A stretch of DNA of 5,314 bases from a bacterium. Lineage in GTDB: Bacteria; AUK180. A program made the position numbers and the translations under genes. A model generated the notes under the pieces. It did not search any database. It was not told where the DNA came from and saw only the letters and a list, made by a program, of their open reading frames with translations. The stretch is taken from the NCBI GenBank assembly GCA_030622125.1, contig JAUXGM010000144.1, positions 1-5,314 on the forward strand. The letters run 5' to 3'. How positions within the stretch are numbered: the first letter of the stretch is position 1; every line of letters starts with the position of its first letter. Positions 137-5,314 of the stretch are shown one piece after another.

Positions 137-247
137 TTAATGGCATATAAATTCGTTATTCAAATAATTTTGTTGAAAAGAGGGAGGTTCTAACTTTAAA
201 AAGATAGCATCATCAATAAGTAAGTAGTTTTTGTCCATTCTATTCAT
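137..247 (-). CDS. Possible 36-aa small protein between lipoprotein and membrane protein
   Basis: An ATG at 247 opens 36 codons ending in TAA at 137-139; a second in-frame ATG lies three codons later, at 238. The peptide begins MNRMDKNYLLIDDAIFLKLE and ends in NEFICH, with no signal peptide or membrane segment. It starts 12 nt after the lipoprotein stop. The sequence AAAGGTGA that forms the last codons of the lipoprotein gene could act as its Shine-Dalgarno site, although about 14 nt from the first ATG is long. Its stop is immediately followed by the Shine-Dalgarno site of the next gene, so it fills the gap between two genes exactly. That packing is the main argument that it is real. It could instead be chance or the tail of a decayed gene. 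No family is recognised. Confidence 0.35.
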   Translation of the reverse strand: MNRMDKNYLLIDDAIFLKLEPPSFQQNYLNNEFICH

Positions 248-259
248 ACTATTTTTTGC

Positions 260-1528
260 TTATTCACCTTTTATATAGGGATTTGTTTTGTAATCTTGAT
301 ATATCTTATGTTTCATTCTTGCAAATTTTGTCTTATCGGTTAATTTCTCACCTTCATTATAGCAATCAATGGCTTTCGGACGCTCTCCAATCATATCATA
401 ACACCATCCTAAATTTCTATAAAGAATACATTTTACAAAATCATCATCTATATTCTCTTTTTTTAAATTATCCTCAACAATATTATAGTACTTGATAGCA
501 ACCTTATACGATGAAGATAAAAAATAATACCATCCATATTCAAATTGTAATCTAATTGATTCAGGATTTTTTTGCCTCCATTCATTAAGTATAATCTTTG
601 CTTTTTGAATGTTCTCTTTGGGAATAATATTCGGTTTAAAATCCATATTCGGACCATGTAGAAATGTAGTTATTATGGAAGAATAATATCCATTAACTGC
701 TTCTGTATTACCAAAATCATAATATGTTTTTAGGTCTTCCATTGATGTAATATCAAATATTTCCGAGTCTAAATCAGTTTTTTTAAGTGGTAAAATATCA
801 TCTAATTTTCTAAGTGAAATATCAGACCTATTCAGGAATGAATCATCAAAAAAATGCTTATGTTCTACACCGGTAAGGACAATAATTTTTCTGCCAATAT
901 TTTTATCAATAGCTTTGTTAATAAGATTTAACATATTTTGGTTGCGTGTCATGTAATATAGATTAAAAGGATTATCGCCAAATACCTGCATAGATATTTT
1001 ATAACTTTCTCTGATATAATTGTTATATTCATCCCCATTCCAGAATTTATAGTCATATTCCTTTACATTCTCCCATATATTTCTGTATGTTTTATTAAAT
1101 TTTTGAATCAAATTATTGTTTAACTCTAATGAATCAGCAATTTTTTGTTTTTCGATGTATTCCGGTTCCTTACTTAATTTTTCCCGTAATGCTCTGGTAT
1201 TTTCACCGGAATACCAATCAATAGGATAAACTTTTTTATTATATTTCATTCCATATATTGTTGCCATCATCATTTCAATTAAGTAGGGCTTTTTTCTAAA
1301 ATCCTCCGGACGAATTTCAACACAGATAACATCAATATCATAAGTTGCAAGGATTTGAATAATATTTTTATAAGAATAATTTATATTGTTTTGATGATTA
1401 TGATGGAGTGTACCTATAATTAATATTTCTGTTTTCTTCTTTCCAACTTCTTTATTCAACACACATCCGGTAATGAATATTCCGATACCTATTAACAAGA
1501 TAAACACCATTTTAATCGATGTTTTCAT
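260..1528 (-). CDS. TraB/TIKI-like (EreA/ChaN-type) lipoprotein with C-terminal TPRs
   Basis: This 422-residue lipoprotein is predicted to be anchored outside the cytoplasmic membrane. Residues 1-22 form a lipoprotein signal: Lys at 2 and 6, a hydrophobic core, and lipobox ITGC with Cys22. The N-terminal domain has the hallmarks of the TraB/TIKI/EreA-ChaN superfamily: a first GxxH motif (GTLH, 39-42), a conserved acidic strand (VEIRPE, Glu71), an RNxxM motif (195-199) and a second GxxH motif (GVEH, 220-223). In this superfamily these residues line a metal or ligand site; TIKI members are proteases, PrgY/TraB reduces pheromone activity and ChaN binds haem. Residues of about 326-352 and 367-398 form two TPR-like helical repeats, a likely protein-binding tail. 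I chose the ATG at 1528 because GGAGGG lies 6 nt upstream; an ATG two codons earlier directly abuts that site. Substrate and activity are unknown. It lies 89 bp after the CPBP gene and probably shares its transcript. Confidence 0.8.
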   Translation of the reverse strand: MKTSIKMVFILLIGIGIFITGCVLNKEVGKKKTEILIIGTLHHNHQNNINYSYKNIIQILATYDIDVICVEIRPEDFRKKPYLIEMMMATIYGMKYNKKVYPIDWYSGENTRALREKLSKEPEYIEKQKIADSLELNNNLIQKFNKTYRNIWENVKEYDYKFWNGDEYNNYIRESYKISMQVFGDNPFNLYYMTRNQNMLNLINKAIDKNIGRKIIVLTGVEHKHFFDDSFLNRSDISLRKLDDILPLKKTDLDSEIFDITSMEDLKTYYDFGNTEAVNGYYSSIITTFLHGPNMDFKPNIIPKENIQKAKIILNEWRQKNPESIRLQFEYGWYYFLSSSYKVAIKYYNIVEDNLKKENIDDDFVKCILYRNLGWCYDMIGERPKAIDCYNEGEKLTDKTKFARMKHKIYQDYKTNPYIKGE

Positions 1529-1534
1529 AATCAT

Positions 1535-1555: not shown

Positions 1556-1584
1556 TTAATATTTCGCTTAGCTTGTATATCCAA
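1556..1584 (-). promoter_or_regulatory. Weak candidate promoter upstream of the lipoprotein gene
   Basis: TTGGAT (1579-1584) and TATTAA (1556-1561) are separated by 17 nt in the gap between the CPBP and lipoprotein genes. Both hexamers match the consensus poorly, at 3 and 4 of 6 positions. The gap also holds a small inverted repeat, ATATCC/GGATAT with a 9-nt loop. With no terminator between the genes, read-through from the CPBP promoter is at least as likely. Confidence 0.2.
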
Positions 1585-1617
1585 GTAGTTCGGATATCTT
1601 TCCAGTCTGCCTATCAT

Positions 1618-2475
1618 TTATTGATTAACCGGGTATTTTAAATAACAATAAACAGCGATTATTGATACAATAAATAATCCAATTATTCCGGTTGGACCTT
1701 CAAGGAACATATTCATTTTATCCTTAACCACTAAAAAGAGCATAACCGTAGTTCCTGCCCAATTCATAATTCCATGGGCTAAACCGACGGAAAAAATAGA
1801 TTTACTCTTTCGATAAAAATATTGTAATATAATTCCCCAGGAAATGCAAAAGATAATCATAAAAAGAATGCCCAAGATTGGGTTTGAAGGATAATTCAAC
1901 CCCATTAAAATCATCGGTAAATGCCAGAGCCCCCAGATAATTCCACCAATAACAAGTCCTGCCTTTTTGAATAATGCTACCAAATTTGGATAAAGAAAAC
2001 CTCGCCAACCAACTTCTTCCCCCAATAATATCGGCAGATTAATTATTGGAGCTACAATCAAATTAAGTGCAAATATTATCAAAATCGACCCGAATAGAGG
2101 AATGTTACCAAGCGGGATATTTGCCTTGCTGATATTCTCAATTAATATCTGCTTGTTCACTAATAGATCGGGGTTCAAAAGAATGGTTGTTATATAAATC
2201 ACCACCAAAATAATTAAAGTTATTAATGGAGCAATTAAGAGATATAATGGTTTCCCGATTCTGAATCCAAGTTTACCACCCTTAAACAAAGGCTCTTTTG
2301 CAATAACTTTTTGAACAAAGAAAGCACTTATCAAGGGAATAAACATAATAATTGTTTGCAATGGCGACTTACCTAATCCTCCCTGTAAAAAAACGACTAA
2401 ACTAAGTCCATAGGTCAAAACAAAATTAATCCCCAGAAACCATACAATCTTTTTAATAATATTTTTTTTATCCAT
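1618..2475 (-). CDS. CPBP-family intramembrane metalloprotease (Abi/CAAX type)
   Basis: This 285-residue polytopic membrane protein has several hydrophobic helices spread over nearly its whole length. The three CPBP (CAAX protease and bacteriocin-processing enzyme) motifs are all present: EExxxR as GEEVGWRGFLYP (Glu153, Glu154, Arg158), a WxxxH motif in IIWGLWHLPMI (Trp181, His185), and HxxxN as HGIMNWAG (His235, Asn239). In this family the two Glu and the His residues form the active site inside the membrane. Bacterial members are linked to bacteriocin self-immunity, peptide maturation or membrane-stress responses, but the substrate here is unknown. Length and motif order are normal and the catalytic residues look intact. 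The start at 2475 has AAAGGAG 8 nt upstream. It is the first large gene after promoter copy A and probably leads an operon with the TraB/TIKI-like lipoprotein. Confidence 0.9.
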   Translation of the reverse strand: MDKKNIIKKIVWFLGINFVLTYGLSLVVFLQGGLGKSPLQTIIMFIPLISAFFVQKVIAKEPLFKGGKLGFRIGKPLYLLIAPLITLIILVVIYITTILLNPDLLVNKQILIENISKANIPLGNIPLFGSILIIFALNLIVAPIINLPILLGEEVGWRGFLYPNLVALFKKAGLVIGGIIWGLWHLPMILMGLNYPSNPILGILFMIIFCISWGIILQYFYRKSKSIFSVGLAHGIMNWAGTTVMLFLVVKDKMNMFLEGPTGIIGLFIVSIIAVYCYLKYPVNQ

Positions 2476-2483
2476 ATTTTAAA

Positions 2484-2490
2484 CTCCTTT
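2484..2490 (-). promoter_or_regulatory. Shine-Dalgarno site of CPBP gene, overlapping a leader-ORF stop codon
   Basis: AAAGGAG lies 8 nt before the CPBP start codon. Its first two bases are also the last two bases of the TAA that ends the 27-codon leader ORF, a layout that could couple the two translations. Confidence 0.7.
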
Positions 2491-2572
2491 ATTTAACCAA
2501 ATCAAAATTATCCAAAGAACTCACTATTCTCCTAAACTGCTTCTTTATTATCTTGAATTTATACTTTCTCAT
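2489..2572 (-). CDS. Possible 27-aa cationic leader peptide ahead of the CPBP gene
   Basis: The ATG at 2572 lies 8 nt after the TATAAT of promoter copy A, about where transcription would start, so the ORF would be leaderless; no Shine-Dalgarno site precedes it. It begins MRKYKFKIIKKQFRRIVSSL, has a net charge of about +7 and ends with TAA inside the CPBP Shine-Dalgarno site. An ORF with the same geometry and a related N-terminus (M-[RK]-[KE]-Y-K-x-x-I-I-K) precedes the methyltransferase at 4669-4758. It may be a regulatory leader peptide, a small cationic peptide, or only the translation of a conserved untranslated leader. The two ORFs diverge after about codon 10, which weakens the case for selection on the protein. 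Confidence 0.3.
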   Translation of the reverse strand: MRKYKFKIIKKQFRRIVSSLDNFDLVK

Positions 2573-2611
2573 ATATTTAATTATATCACTTTTAATCCCA
2601 AAAATCAAATT
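2558..2611 (-). promoter_or_regulatory. Promoter and leader module, copy A (upstream of CPBP gene)
   Basis: The minus strand carries TTGATT (2603-2608), a 17-nt spacer and TATAAT (2580-2585), with TG one base upstream of the -10 box, an extended -10 element. Transcription should begin near 2572-2573, giving a 5' leader of about 97 nt before the CPBP start. The module matches copy B (4744-4797) at 48 of 54 positions without a gap, including spacer and initial transcribed bases. That is far more than shared hexamers would produce. Confidence 0.8.
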
Positions 2612-2696
2612 ATTTGGTGCAAATTATACGAATAGAAATAACGAATAACCCGAAAGTAAAAATGGGGACGGAGGAGAACTTTCGCAACTAACGAAT

Positions 2697-2734
2697 GAGA
2701 TTGCCTCAGTCATTTCATTCCTTCGCAATGACAG
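2697..2734. repeat. Palindromic element R1 (GAGATTGC...GCAATGACAG)
   Basis: ATTGC (2700-2704) pairs with GCAAT (2725-2729), and the right end reads GCAATGACAG. The layout matches R2, R3 and R5. Elements of the form GAGATTGC...GCAATGACA are familiar as dispersed intergenic repeats in several bacterial lineages. Confidence 0.6.
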
Positions 2735-2748
2735 AAAGAGAAAGAAAT

Positions 2749-2798
2749 GAGATTGTCACATTGGAGTTTATCCCGCACTCGATGCAGGACAATGACAG
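2749..2798. repeat. Palindromic element R2 (GAGATTGTC...GACAATGACAG)
   Basis: ATTGTC (2752-2757) pairs perfectly with GACAAT (2788-2793). The centre, GGAGTTTATCCCGCACTCGA, is clearly related to the centre of R3, GGAGTTTACCCCGTACTTGA. R2 and R3 are therefore copies of one element family even though their stem sequences differ. Confidence 0.65.
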
Positions 2799-2824
2799 AA
2801 AATAAATACAGAATGAAAAGAAAA

Positions 2825-2876
2825 GATGGATTCCTGCCGGAGTTTACCCCGTACTTGATTCGGGGCAGGAATGACA
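2825..2876. repeat. Palindromic element R3 with 9-bp stem (ATTCCTGCC/GGCAGGAAT)
   Basis: ATTCCTGCC (2830-2838) pairs perfectly with GGCAGGAAT (2864-2872). An alternative inner hairpin, CCCCG (2847-2851) with CGGGG (2861-2865), competes for the same right arm. The right end reads GGAATGACAG. It is the best-formed copy in the cluster. The stem recalls the dRS3 repeats of Neisseria (ATTCCC-N8-GGGAAT), although the centre is different and longer. Confidence 0.7.
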
Positions 2877-2890
2877 GAAAAGGACTCTCT

Positions 2891-2910
2891 ATCTGGTGAC
2901 CTGGTGCTCT
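2891..2910. repeat. Short 8-mer tandem repeat (CTGGTG type)
   Basis: The stretch reads ATCTGGTGACCTGGTGCTCT: CTGGTG occurs twice at 8-nt spacing, followed by a partial third unit, TCTG. It is a short imperfect tandem between R3 and the GTTCAAGG block. Confidence 0.5.
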
Positions 2911-3033
2911 GAAAAAACAATGTCAAAAGTGACGAAGTCATTAAAAAAGTTCAAGGTTCAAAAGTTTACCCAGCACCGTGAAACTGGTACGGGGTGAAAA
3001 GGTTCAAGGTAAGAAAATGAAGTAAAAAAATAC

Positions 3034-3062
3034 TGGATTCTTCGCTGTGTTCAGAATGACAG
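3034..3062. repeat. Palindromic element R5 (GGATTCT...AGAATGACAG)
   Basis: ATTCT (3037-3041) pairs with AGAAT (3053-3057), and the right end AGAATGACAG matches the other elements. On the minus strand the stem is followed, six bases on, by seven Ts (3024-3030), so it could act as a weak terminator for the GNAT gene. The stem is short and AT-rich and the U-tract is displaced, so I do not call it a terminator. Confidence 0.5.
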
Positions 3063-3085
3063 ATCTTCTTTATTTTTGCATTTTC

Positions 3086-3109
3086 ACTATTTACCATTTA
3101 CTATTTACC
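3086..3109. repeat. Direct repeat of ACTATTTACC covering the GNAT stop codon
   Basis: ACTATTTACC occurs at 3086-3095 and 3100-3109, 14 nt apart. Read on the minus strand as GGTAAATAGT, the right copy encodes the last two residues (Gly-Lys) and TAG stop of the GNAT gene. The array lies exactly where coding sequence meets the repeat mosaic. Confidence 0.65.
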
Positions 3110-3829
3110 GTTACATTTATGCAATATCCATACATTCGGCTCAATATATTCACCTAAATTATTTTCTAAATCAATATTTACGGAGTTTAAAGCACCTTCA
3201 ACAATATATTTATTGGTTTCACCAAAATACATACCCGTCCACTTTTCCCAATCGGAAACAGTTCCCCTAACCGTCATAGATGAATTCGCCACTTTTAAAA
3301 TTTTACCACCAAGCTTTATATGAACCCTCAGCCATGGATCAAAAGGCAGATCATTTTTTTTCCAATTTATAAAATTATTAAATGAAATTGTAGGATACTG
3401 TGGTTTTAAGGTCGGTCTGATAGGAAGAATAAGATTGGAATACCCACATTTCTTTCCAAGTTCCTTAAAGCCCTCAATGATCTTGTAGCTTATTCCTTTT
3501 CCGAGATGATCTTTTGATATTACCGCTGCCATTCCACACAATGTATTGGGATTTTCATTTTTTCCGATTATGGTTTTTAGCGCATCATCAAATCCATCAG
3601 GTAAACCGTCTATTTTACCGTTCCAATAAATGGGAGCAGAATTACCGATACCGACATAAGCATTATCGATCTTGAATAATAATTGAAATTCAGGATATTT
3701 TGAATAGATGGTTCGCCAATATTTTTTAACAACGGCATCCTCATTTAGAAAAACAGGCCATGCATTACTGTGCATACTGTTTATTACATCTACTAATTTT
3801 TCATTTTCAGACAATTTTTCTATGATCAT
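3101..3829 (-). CDS. GNAT-like N-acyltransferase, unknown substrate
   Basis: This 242-residue soluble protein contains a GNAT acetyl-CoA-binding core. In the segment AAVISKDHLGKGISYKIIEG (101-120), the beta-strand, Gly110-Lys-Gly112 loop and following helix match motif A; the usual Gln/Arg of Q/RxxGxG/A is Asp107. The N-terminal half includes a beta-strand pair (LLFKIDNAYVGIGNSAPIYW, 50-69) typical of the fold. The C-terminal half carries DLPFDPWLRVH (160-170), GTVSDWEKWTGM (189-200) and EPNVWILHK (230-238). I recognise these as conserved in a subset of long GNAT-like proteins of unknown substrate. AAGGAG 8 nt upstream supports the start. It lies 55 bp after the methyltransferase without a promoter or terminator between them, so the two are probably cotranscribed. 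The last residues, NGK, overlap or adjoin a short repeat, suggesting the original C-terminus changed slightly. Confidence 0.75.
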   Translation of the reverse strand: MIIEKLSENEKLVDVINSMHSNAWPVFLNEDAVVKKYWRTIYSKYPEFQLLFKIDNAYVGIGNSAPIYWNGKIDGLPDGFDDALKTIIGKNENPNTLCGMAAVISKDHLGKGISYKIIEGFKELGKKCGYSNLILPIRPTLKPQYPTISFNNFINWKKNDLPFDPWLRVHIKLGGKILKVANSSMTVRGTVSDWEKWTGMYFGETNKYIVEGALNSVNIDLENNLGEYIEPNVWILHKCNGK

Positions 3830-3884
3830 TTTATCATCTCCTTAAAAAGAATTTCACTTAACATTGTTTATCTGAGGTCGCCAT

Positions 3885-4664
3885 TCATTCATCTTTCTTC
3901 ACTTCTTTTTTAGCAATAATAATCATTCTTTTAGAATCACTTGTGAGAGGATTTGCCTGCCAGTCTCCATACATCCTGTAGATGTTAAATCCAGCCTTCA
4001 TTAATAAATCTCGTATCTCTGTTGGATTATAAACCCTTACCAAAAAGGGCTTATCTTTCCGTTTACCATTTCTAATGATAATTCTTCGGTTGGAAAGACA
4101 TCCCGTAACACTATCAAAAGTATTCCTATCTATCATCAAATCGTCTCCTTTTTCTGTCACTATGTATGGTAGAAAGTGCTTTAAGAAAACATCTCTGTTT
4201 GCTGTATCAAAACAGAATAATCCTTCTGGTTTAAGAGCATCAGCGATATTTTTGAGAACCTTAAAATTCTCTTCATCTTCAAAATATCCAAACGAAGTAA
4301 AAAGAAGAAGAACCCTATTAAATTCCTCTACAAATGAGATCTTTCGCATATCTTTTTGAATATATGTAACACTTATGCCTTTTTCTTTTGCCTCTTTTTT
4401 TGCAATTTTAAGAAATCCCCTGGTAATATCAACACCTGTAACATTGTATCCAAGTTTTGCCAAGGGATTAGCATGTCTCCCATGTCCACAAGCTAAATCA
4501 AGAATCTTCATAGACTTATCAAACTGCAATTCTTTTACCAAGAACTTTATTTCTGTTTTTGTTCGTTTTTCAGTCAACGAATCCCCATAAAAATATAGAT
4601 AATCATCCGGCTCAAAAACTGCCTTGAAGTCAAATCCTGACTTTATGTATTTTTCTTTGTTCAT
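3885..4664 (-). CDS. Class I SAM-dependent methyltransferase
   Basis: This 259-residue cytoplasmic protein has the order of motifs expected of a Rossmann-type methyltransferase. Motif I is ILDLACGHGRHANPLAKLG (54-72, with the glycine loop CGHG). The acidic residue at the end of strand 2 is Asp79 in VTGVDIT. KDMRKI (104-109) corresponds to the strand 3 loop, LLLFTSFGYFED (119-130) to motif IV and LKPEGLFCFDTAN (144-156) to the strand 5 region. It resembles small-molecule methyltransferases more than DNA methylases: there is no DPPY/NPPY motif, and the length is normal for the former. The substrate cannot be read from sequence. GAGG about 8 nt upstream supports the start. It is the first large gene after promoter copy B and likely shares a transcript with the GNAT-like gene, so the pair may modify one compound. 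That functional link is inference. Confidence 0.88.
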   Translation of the reverse strand: MNKEKYIKSGFDFKAVFEPDDYLYFYGDSLTEKRTKTEIKFLVKELQFDKSMKILDLACGHGRHANPLAKLGYNVTGVDITRGFLKIAKKEAKEKGISVTYIQKDMRKISFVEEFNRVLLLFTSFGYFEDEENFKVLKNIADALKPEGLFCFDTANRDVFLKHFLPYIVTEKGDDLMIDRNTFDSVTGCLSNRRIIIRNGKRKDKPFLVRVYNPTEIRDLLMKAGFNIYRMYGDWQANPLTSDSKRMIIIAKKEVKKDE

Positions 4665-4668
4665 TGCG

Positions 4669-4758
4669 TTACCTCTTTTTGGCGATTTTGTATGAAGTGT
4701 TCATATCAGCACTTAGCTGGGTATAAATCTTGATTATTATAATTTTATACTCTTTCAT
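4669..4758 (-). CDS. Possible 29-aa cationic leader peptide ahead of the methyltransferase
   Basis: The ATG at 4758 lies 8 nt after the TATAAT of promoter copy B, the same geometry as at 2572. The ORF starts MKEYKIIIIKIYTQLSADMN, ends in KIAKKR and has a net charge of about +5. Its TAA (4669-4671) directly follows the methyltransferase Shine-Dalgarno site AAGAGG (4672-4677). Six of its first ten residues equal those of the leader ORF upstream of the CPBP gene; the rest differs. Translation would have to begin on a leaderless or nearly leaderless mRNA. It may be a real leader peptide or only a conserved 5' leader that happens to be open. Confidence 0.3.
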   Translation of the reverse strand: MKEYKIIIIKIYTQLSADMNTSYKIAKKR

Positions 4759-4797
4759 CTATTTAATTATATCTCTTTTAACCCTAAAAATCAAATT
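4744..4797 (-). promoter_or_regulatory. Promoter and leader module, copy B (upstream of methyltransferase)
   Basis: The minus strand carries TTGATT (4789-4794), a 17-nt spacer and TATAAT (4766-4771). Transcription should start near 4758-4759, giving a leader of about 94 nt. Unlike copy A, the base pair before the -10 box is GA rather than TG, so it lacks the extended -10 element. The match to copy A (48 of 54 positions) includes the spacer and initial transcribed bases. Confidence 0.8.
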
Positions 4798-4867
4798 TTT
4801 ATCCCTACTTTTTTAATTTCAGTCAATAAATCCTGAAAATATTTTTTAAAAAAAAAATTTAGAAAAT

Positions 4868-4962: not shown

Positions 4963-5314
4963 TTATTCACTGTTATCTGAAGTTTCGCTTTCAATTTGCT
5001 CAATTTTTTCCTTTCTCAACTCATCTAAGGTCTTACCAAATTTCTTATGAATAGCCCACCCATAGATACAAATTGAAGACCACCCTGTTACTTTTTGCCC
5101 CCACTGATTATATGTTAATTTTTCCTCATTAAATTTTACTTCTCTGGCATCTAAAACTTCTGCTTTTGAATTATCATGATTCTTTATAGAAAGTTTATCT
5201 CCTTTTTTCAATATACCCCATTCAAATAATTTAGGCATTCTTGGAAGGTTTGCTCTCTTAATTTCTGTAATTGGCTTCTTACCCCGGCTTGGTAATTCTC
5301 TTTCTAAAATGTCA
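4963..5314 (-). CDS. C-terminal part of a protein ending in a RAMA-like domain
   Basis: The frame is open from the TAA at 4963-4965 to the right edge, giving 116 visible residues (codons start at 5313). An internal Met at 5238 is probably not the start: 25 further sense codons precede it, reading DILERELPSRGKKPITEIKR and on, and no Shine-Dalgarno site is seen before it. Residues of about 26-105 resemble the RAMA domain (restriction enzyme adenine methylase associated): LFEWGILKKGDKL opens it, followed by beta-rich sequence, then VTGWSSICIYGWAIHKKFGK and TLDELR. In known proteins this domain sits at the C-terminus of DNA methylases, nucleases or restriction-modification partners and is thought to bind DNA. 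The catalytic part lies outside the window, so the full function is unknown. The tail after TLDELR is charged and probably disordered. Confidence 0.75.
   Translation of the reverse strand, partial: DILERELPSRGKKPITEIKRANLPRMPKLFEWGILKKGDKLSIKNHDNSKAEVLDAREVKFNEEKLTYNQWGQKVTGWSSICIYGWAIHKKFGKTLDELRKEKIEQIESETSDNSE

Follow-up and report, generated by a model that had tools for sequence, protein, structure and literature searches.

Genes and a repeated promoter module in the window

The window analysed here is a whole contig of 5,314 bases (C169) from a WOR-3-like metagenome-assembled genome of 2.08 Mb in 192 contigs (G000). Read 5' to 3' along the minus strand, it carries the end of a PDC-S57-like gene, a promoter module (copy B), a hairpin site, a methyltransferase gene, a weak site, a GNAT-like gene, 500 nt with dispersed repeats, a second promoter module (copy A), a CPBP gene, another hairpin site, a TPR lipoprotein-like gene, a second weak site and the next gene (Table 1). 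The C-terminal part of the first of these genes, at 4963-5313, matches the PADLOC candidate defence family PDC-S57. At 2660-3070 the dispersed intergenic repeats (TGTCATTGCGAAGG..., GTCATTCCTGCCCCGAATCAAGTACGGGGTAAACTCC...) are dense, and they have many copies both in G000 and in the related genome G002. Rfam gave no match in the window.

Table 1. Features of the window, listed 5' to 3' along the minus strand; bit scores and E-values refer to the site model R1.
Feature	Position	Strand	Remarks
Module copy B	4728..4800	(-)	-35 TTGATT 4794-4789; -10 TATAAT 4771-4766
Leader start codon of module B	4758-4756	(-)	
Leader ORF B, MKEYKIIIIKIYTQLSADMNTSYKIAKKR then stop	4669..4758	(-)	5' codons only, recombinase C-terminus lost
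Hairpin att-like site, module B to methyltransferase gene	4682..4737	(-)	37.5 bits, E 3e-7 in the window
Cargo: SAM-dependent methyltransferase	3885..4664	(-)	
Weak degenerate att-like site, methyltransferase/GNAT-like gap	3848..3913	(-)	core GTTAAGTG; 16.4 bits, E 0.04; tentative
Cargo: GNAT according to the sequence-only reading	3101..3829	(-)	no Pfam match
Module copy A	2542..2614	(-)	-35 TTGATT 2608-2603; 17-nt spacer; -10 TATAAT 2585-2580
Leader start codon of module A	2572-2570	(-)	
Leader ORF A, MRKYKFKIIKKQFRRIVSSLDNFDLVK then stop	2489..2572	(-)	shared 5' codons, then last codons of recombinase (~KIxSPLDNL)
Cargo: CPBP (Rce1-like) membrane protease	1618..2475	(-)	
Hairpin att-like site, CPBP to TPR lipoprotein-like gene	1558..1610	(-)	43.5 bits, E 1e-8
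Cargo: lipoprotein-like, TPR-like C-terminus	260..1534	(-)	weak TPR matches below cut-off
Weak degenerate att-like site, TPR gene/next gene	137..178	(-)	core TTTATATGCC; 16.6 bits, E 0.04; tentative

The sequence-only reading of this DNA had pointed to an ungapped minus-strand match between 2611-2558 and 4797-4744, and its coordinates, its count of 48 identical positions in 54 and its reading of the letters were exact when we recounted them. Over the longer stretches 2614-2542 and 4800-4728 the match is likewise ungapped, with 61 of 73 positions identical. When the window was shuffled 40 times with its dinucleotides preserved, the best direct 54-nt match in any shuffle was 37 of 54 (mean 33.9). 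TTGATT, the 17-nt spacer, TATAAT and the ATG are common to modules A and B, and by sequence the -35 and -10 hexamers, with their 17-nt spacing and their conservation among copies, are those of a sigma-70 promoter. The TGn of an extended -10 is found in module A and is absent from module B, as that reading had also noticed; because TG before the -10 is the commoner state across the genome-wide family, it was probably lost in module B.

A dispersed module and its recombinase remnants

By DNA and pattern searches, the module of promoter and leader was found in about 13 copies in G000. Besides the two in the window, copies lie on C25, C65, C1, C138, C54, C17, C124 and C15, and more diverged ones on C91, C75 and C115; the module pattern read backwards gave no match in this search. 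The module is also present in three relatives, G001, G002 and G005, with two copies 1.9 kb apart in G002, and two copies 1.6 kb apart plus one more in G005. The genome search suggested in the sequence-only reading therefore returned many copies before diverse genes, which was the outcome expected there of a mobile or regulon promoter and not that of a two-copy duplication. The same reading had judged the match too long for independent promoters and had considered copying by recombination; both views agree with a homologous module dispersed in many copies.

The first genes behind the module copies differ and were read as nuclease-like, DUF1611-like, lipoprotein, restriction enzyme, radical SAM, CPBP protease, KamA-like aminomutase, DNA methyltransferase, GNAT and papain-like, these names being readings of the sequences except for the scanned genes of the window. 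Beyond cassette-like cargo, they show no common theme. In C25 and G002, the module, the site and the DUF1611 gene form one block of 1.39 kb that is 89% identical between the two, with flanks that are unrelated on both sides.

Window positions 5284-5314 are identical over 31 nt to positions 15-45 of C54 (L050), and the match follows the reading frame of the cut gene. Possibly the two contigs adjoin each other, or a duplicated gene is present in both; if C54 adjoins the window contig, three modules might stand in one array, which is uncertain.

In most copies a short ORF (MKKYKIKITK...) begins downstream of the promoter and continues as a tyrosine-recombinase C-terminus, for example MKKYKIKITKRHIGRMVSPLDNLGECRDDES in C17, and in many copies this leader is continuous in frame. 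The least reduced copies retain (I)QELLxH...TT(E/M)IYTHV...SPLDxL and match the integron-integrase model TIGR02249: the leader tail of G001 does so at 5.3e-10 (model positions 281-313 of 315) and that of C65 at 1.2e-7 (model positions 278-315 of 315), with the tyrosine motif IYTHV present in these tails. The C65 tail has a weak PF00589 match too. In module A and in most of the remaining copies the tail is too short to be scored by itself and was assigned via the alignment; for leader A, the C-terminal homology was established via the less reduced copies of C65 and G001. The stop codon of leader ORF A abuts the ribosome-binding site (RBS) of the CPBP gene, and leader ORF B extends into the hairpin site. 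As judged from these alignments, the leader joins a start region to a tyrosine-recombinase C-terminus.

No intact non-Xer integrase was found in G000, whose only two intact PF00589 members are XerC- and XerD-like, and no intact integrase was found with the MKKYKIKI start and the module promoter. Because of the latter, it is by inference only that we assign the 5' half of the leader to an integrase gene, its shared 5' codons presumably being the start of a gene that was lost. Among recombinases of the viral collection, the 80 matches listed all cover the leader consensus from residue 15 on, and none covers the N-terminal codons.

The -35 TTGA, the TA and AA of the -10 and the hexamer spacing are identical in all compared copies (16 of 16). 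The promoter boxes and start codon hold the most constant columns of the module; parts of the spacer and of the upstream region vary. Leader codons 2-11 vary about equally at their three positions (17, 23 and 20), with 6 synonymous and 38 nonsynonymous differences, and on this evidence a conserved functional leader peptide was rejected. A kept promoter with freely changing leader codons would fit selection on the promoter, in a comparison that is partly biased because the copies were found by their similarity to the promoter region.

A hairpin site with an integron-like core

Behind most leaders lies a conserved hairpin site of about 45-95 nt, the 3' end of which is an integron-like GTTRNRY core. 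Its consensus is GTATATCCGAACTnnTTCGGATATAAACAAGTTATnTGAAAT. The hairpin is imperfect, and the 3' core is conserved, often as GTTAGGC or GTTAGCC and elsewhere as GTTATAT or a degenerate form. The ten-pair stem is 87.8% paired, and slid versions of it fall to 16-52%. It shows 14 double-sided (compensatory) changes; shuffles average 4.3, and 0 of 500 reach 14. As a tight site pattern matched only 3 copies, a covariance model, R1, was built from 14 sites.

With filters off, the four best R1 matches in the window all lie in gaps between co-directional genes and on the gene strand. Both strong sites are among the 14 on which R1 was trained, and the one next to module B has an E-value of 1.2e-4 at genome scale; the two weak sites are outside the training set and were scored in the window. 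Between module A and its first gene there is no site. Across 79 kb of other contigs that carry modules, R1 found good sites only beside modules and none between further cassettes; an extended array in which every gene is followed by a site had been expected and was not found there.

In seven genomes of the phylum, R1 found mainly sites beside modules or other recombinase remnants, plus the window site at 1558-1610. When 290 genomes were scanned, sites were found in 15. Many of those outside the phylum are located 30-150 nt 3' of genes of the same recombinase family (G007, G266, G174, G142 and G060), and most of the recombinase genes 5' of such sites are internally deleted or broken. The sites in G152, G157, G176 and G027 have no obvious recombinase upstream. 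Further internally deleted genes of this family are L180 and L181 (G002, C294 and C110), L183 (G006, C205) and L307 (G060), those of G002 and G060 being followed by the site; gutting of the recombinase gene thus seems to recur in different lineages.

In a full-length alignment the site measures about 95 nt and comprises two hairpins, and the AGTT of its 3' core is invariant. When three full sites were folded as single strands with RNA parameters, the two hairpins paired together, with no clear pairing between R'' and R' boxes, which complement each other over the full length of a classical attC site. The structured hairpin with its GTTRRRY-like 3' core beside an integrase gene is an integron-like arrangement. 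No description of this site was found in the literature searched, which was covered in part.

The cargo genes were compared with their homologues at the upstream junctions. Homologue records of the methyltransferase come from candidate division WOR-3, Cloacimonadota and others, the closest (85%) being from WOR-3. In that record (L114), the 85% identity spans only the methyltransferase gene and about 29 nt upstream, with other neighbours around it, and the block of homology begins, near-exactly, within the core (...CTTCATAC in the window, ...GTTATGC in L114). A CPBP-family gene in C65 lies directly behind a site and has a shortened homologue that stands second in C25, behind the DUF1611 gene; in both contigs GTTAGCCG (also given as GTTAGCCGTAATAATT) is the exact start of the homology. 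The GNAT-like gene has a homologue of 90% DNA identity in G002 and the CPBP gene an 80% homologue in G001, each in a different upstream context. Both of these homologies start at the RBS, not at a site core, and give no support for site-core junctions.

In G266, a full-length recombinase ORF of 372 aa is followed by the site and then by a cargo gene. At 6192-9179 of L301 the full-length recombinase, the double-hairpin site and a DUF262-like gene stand in a row, near transposase-like genes. This set is possibly an active member of the system. The G266 protein scores 207.9 against TIGR02249, under the cut-off of 265 bits, and so is not a canonical IntI; against NF040815 (XerA/'integron integrase') it scores 240.3, over the cut-off of 220. 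It is most similar to Vibrio IntI4 (2A3V) and XerA. The alignment with 2A3V breaks where query residues 257-286 (28 aa) stand against IntI residues 171-242 (70 aa), a stretch which we take to be the IntI-specific insertion between the halves of the catalytic domain, and the relative lacks this insertion. Because of this lack and of the score below the integron-integrase cut-off, we call the system integron-like and not an integron.

Origin of the modules and comparison with known systems

We consider it fairly probable (about 0.68) that the modules are relict integron-like platforms, in which an integrase facing its cassettes was gutted and its promoter was kept as a cassette promoter. In the ancestral platform, the integrase gene would have faced the cassettes and the recombination site belonging to it. 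Deletion would have removed the catalytic middle and spared the promoter with the first 12 or so codons, usually leaving a short C-terminal tail and the 3' att-like hairpin site. Because the integrase was presumably co-directional with the cassettes, its promoter would read through the leader and the site into the cargo gene and would serve as the cassette promoter (Pc). The sequences themselves show the module copies, the C-terminus of the recombinase and the hairpin site, which elsewhere lies 3' of recombinase genes; from these we infer that the module promoter is active and that the hairpin sites recombined cassettes.

Copies that are dispersed, short and divergent, and that have no transposase of their own, would also be expected of a promoter-bearing non-autonomous transposon (MITE-like) with its promoter facing outward. 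We regard this origin as improbable, as a non-exhaustive comparison of copies by eye showed neither terminal inverted repeats nor target duplications at the edges of the module, and the unit holds a recombinase C-terminus and an att-like site.

The order of promoter, short ORF, hairpin and gene, together with the in-frame continuity in many copies, might suggest a regulatory leader, that is, a short peptide with an attenuator-like hairpin that evolved for gene control. This seems quite improbable: the peptide is not conserved at the codon level, the hairpin also stands behind the full-length recombinase of G266, and only one of the four window sites directly follows a leader.

Many module copies do precede different genes, as they would in a regulon, with the module conserved as an operator for a common regulator. 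We found no positive evidence for the shared regulator which the sequence-only reading had considered for the two units of the window, and consider it very unlikely. The constant columns are those of the promoter boxes and the start codon and not those of an operator, the downstream genes share no theme other than cassette-like cargo, and the homology extends past the promoter to the recombinase codons and on to the hairpin site. Local duplication of one promoter within the window contig, offered in the same reading and favoured by the 2186 nt between the two copies, is hardly credible and was refuted by the genome search, because modules A and B are only 83% identical and are not each other's closest copies among the 13 or so, several on other contigs reaching 85-89% (A against C138 87% and against C25 86%, B against C138 89%; 53-72 positions compared).

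More tentatively, with the odds somewhat against it, the relict platforms may belong to a wider integron-like class, which would combine recombinases of the XerA/NF040815 type, lacking the IntI insertion, with the conserved double-hairpin site of about 95 nt across several lineages, and in which the co-directional integrase would have been gutted repeatedly and many copies of its promoter stub would act as cassette promoters. Such relicts would illustrate how promoters of mobile elements become ordinary host promoters, since, where an integrase reads toward its cassettes, losing the enzyme and not the promoter would leave a ready expression platform. The conserved double-hairpin site may serve as a handle for finding units of integrase, site and cargo in other candidate phyla.

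Several known systems resemble the relict platforms in part. CALIN and other integrase-less integron remnants consist of sites and cargo without an integrase. As in those remnants, sites and cargo here outlast the loss of the integrase; here, however, an internal deletion appears to have kept the promoter, the start and the C-terminal tail, at many loci of one genome. Integrase pseudogenes are frequent (PMC2426708). The gene-less cassettes of Vibrio superintegrons carry promoters within the array that read into downstream cassettes (PMC11014356), a property shared with the modules, whereas the promoter here lies upstream of the site and is accompanied by what is left of a recombinase gene. In layout, the modules also resemble the arrangement in which the recombinase gene is transcribed toward the site and the cassettes, so that one promoter can serve both (PMC3607928). 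The modules share this layout and differ from it in that the recombinase is not a canonical IntI, and in that G000 has a gutted recombinase gene and carries the platform in many dispersed copies.
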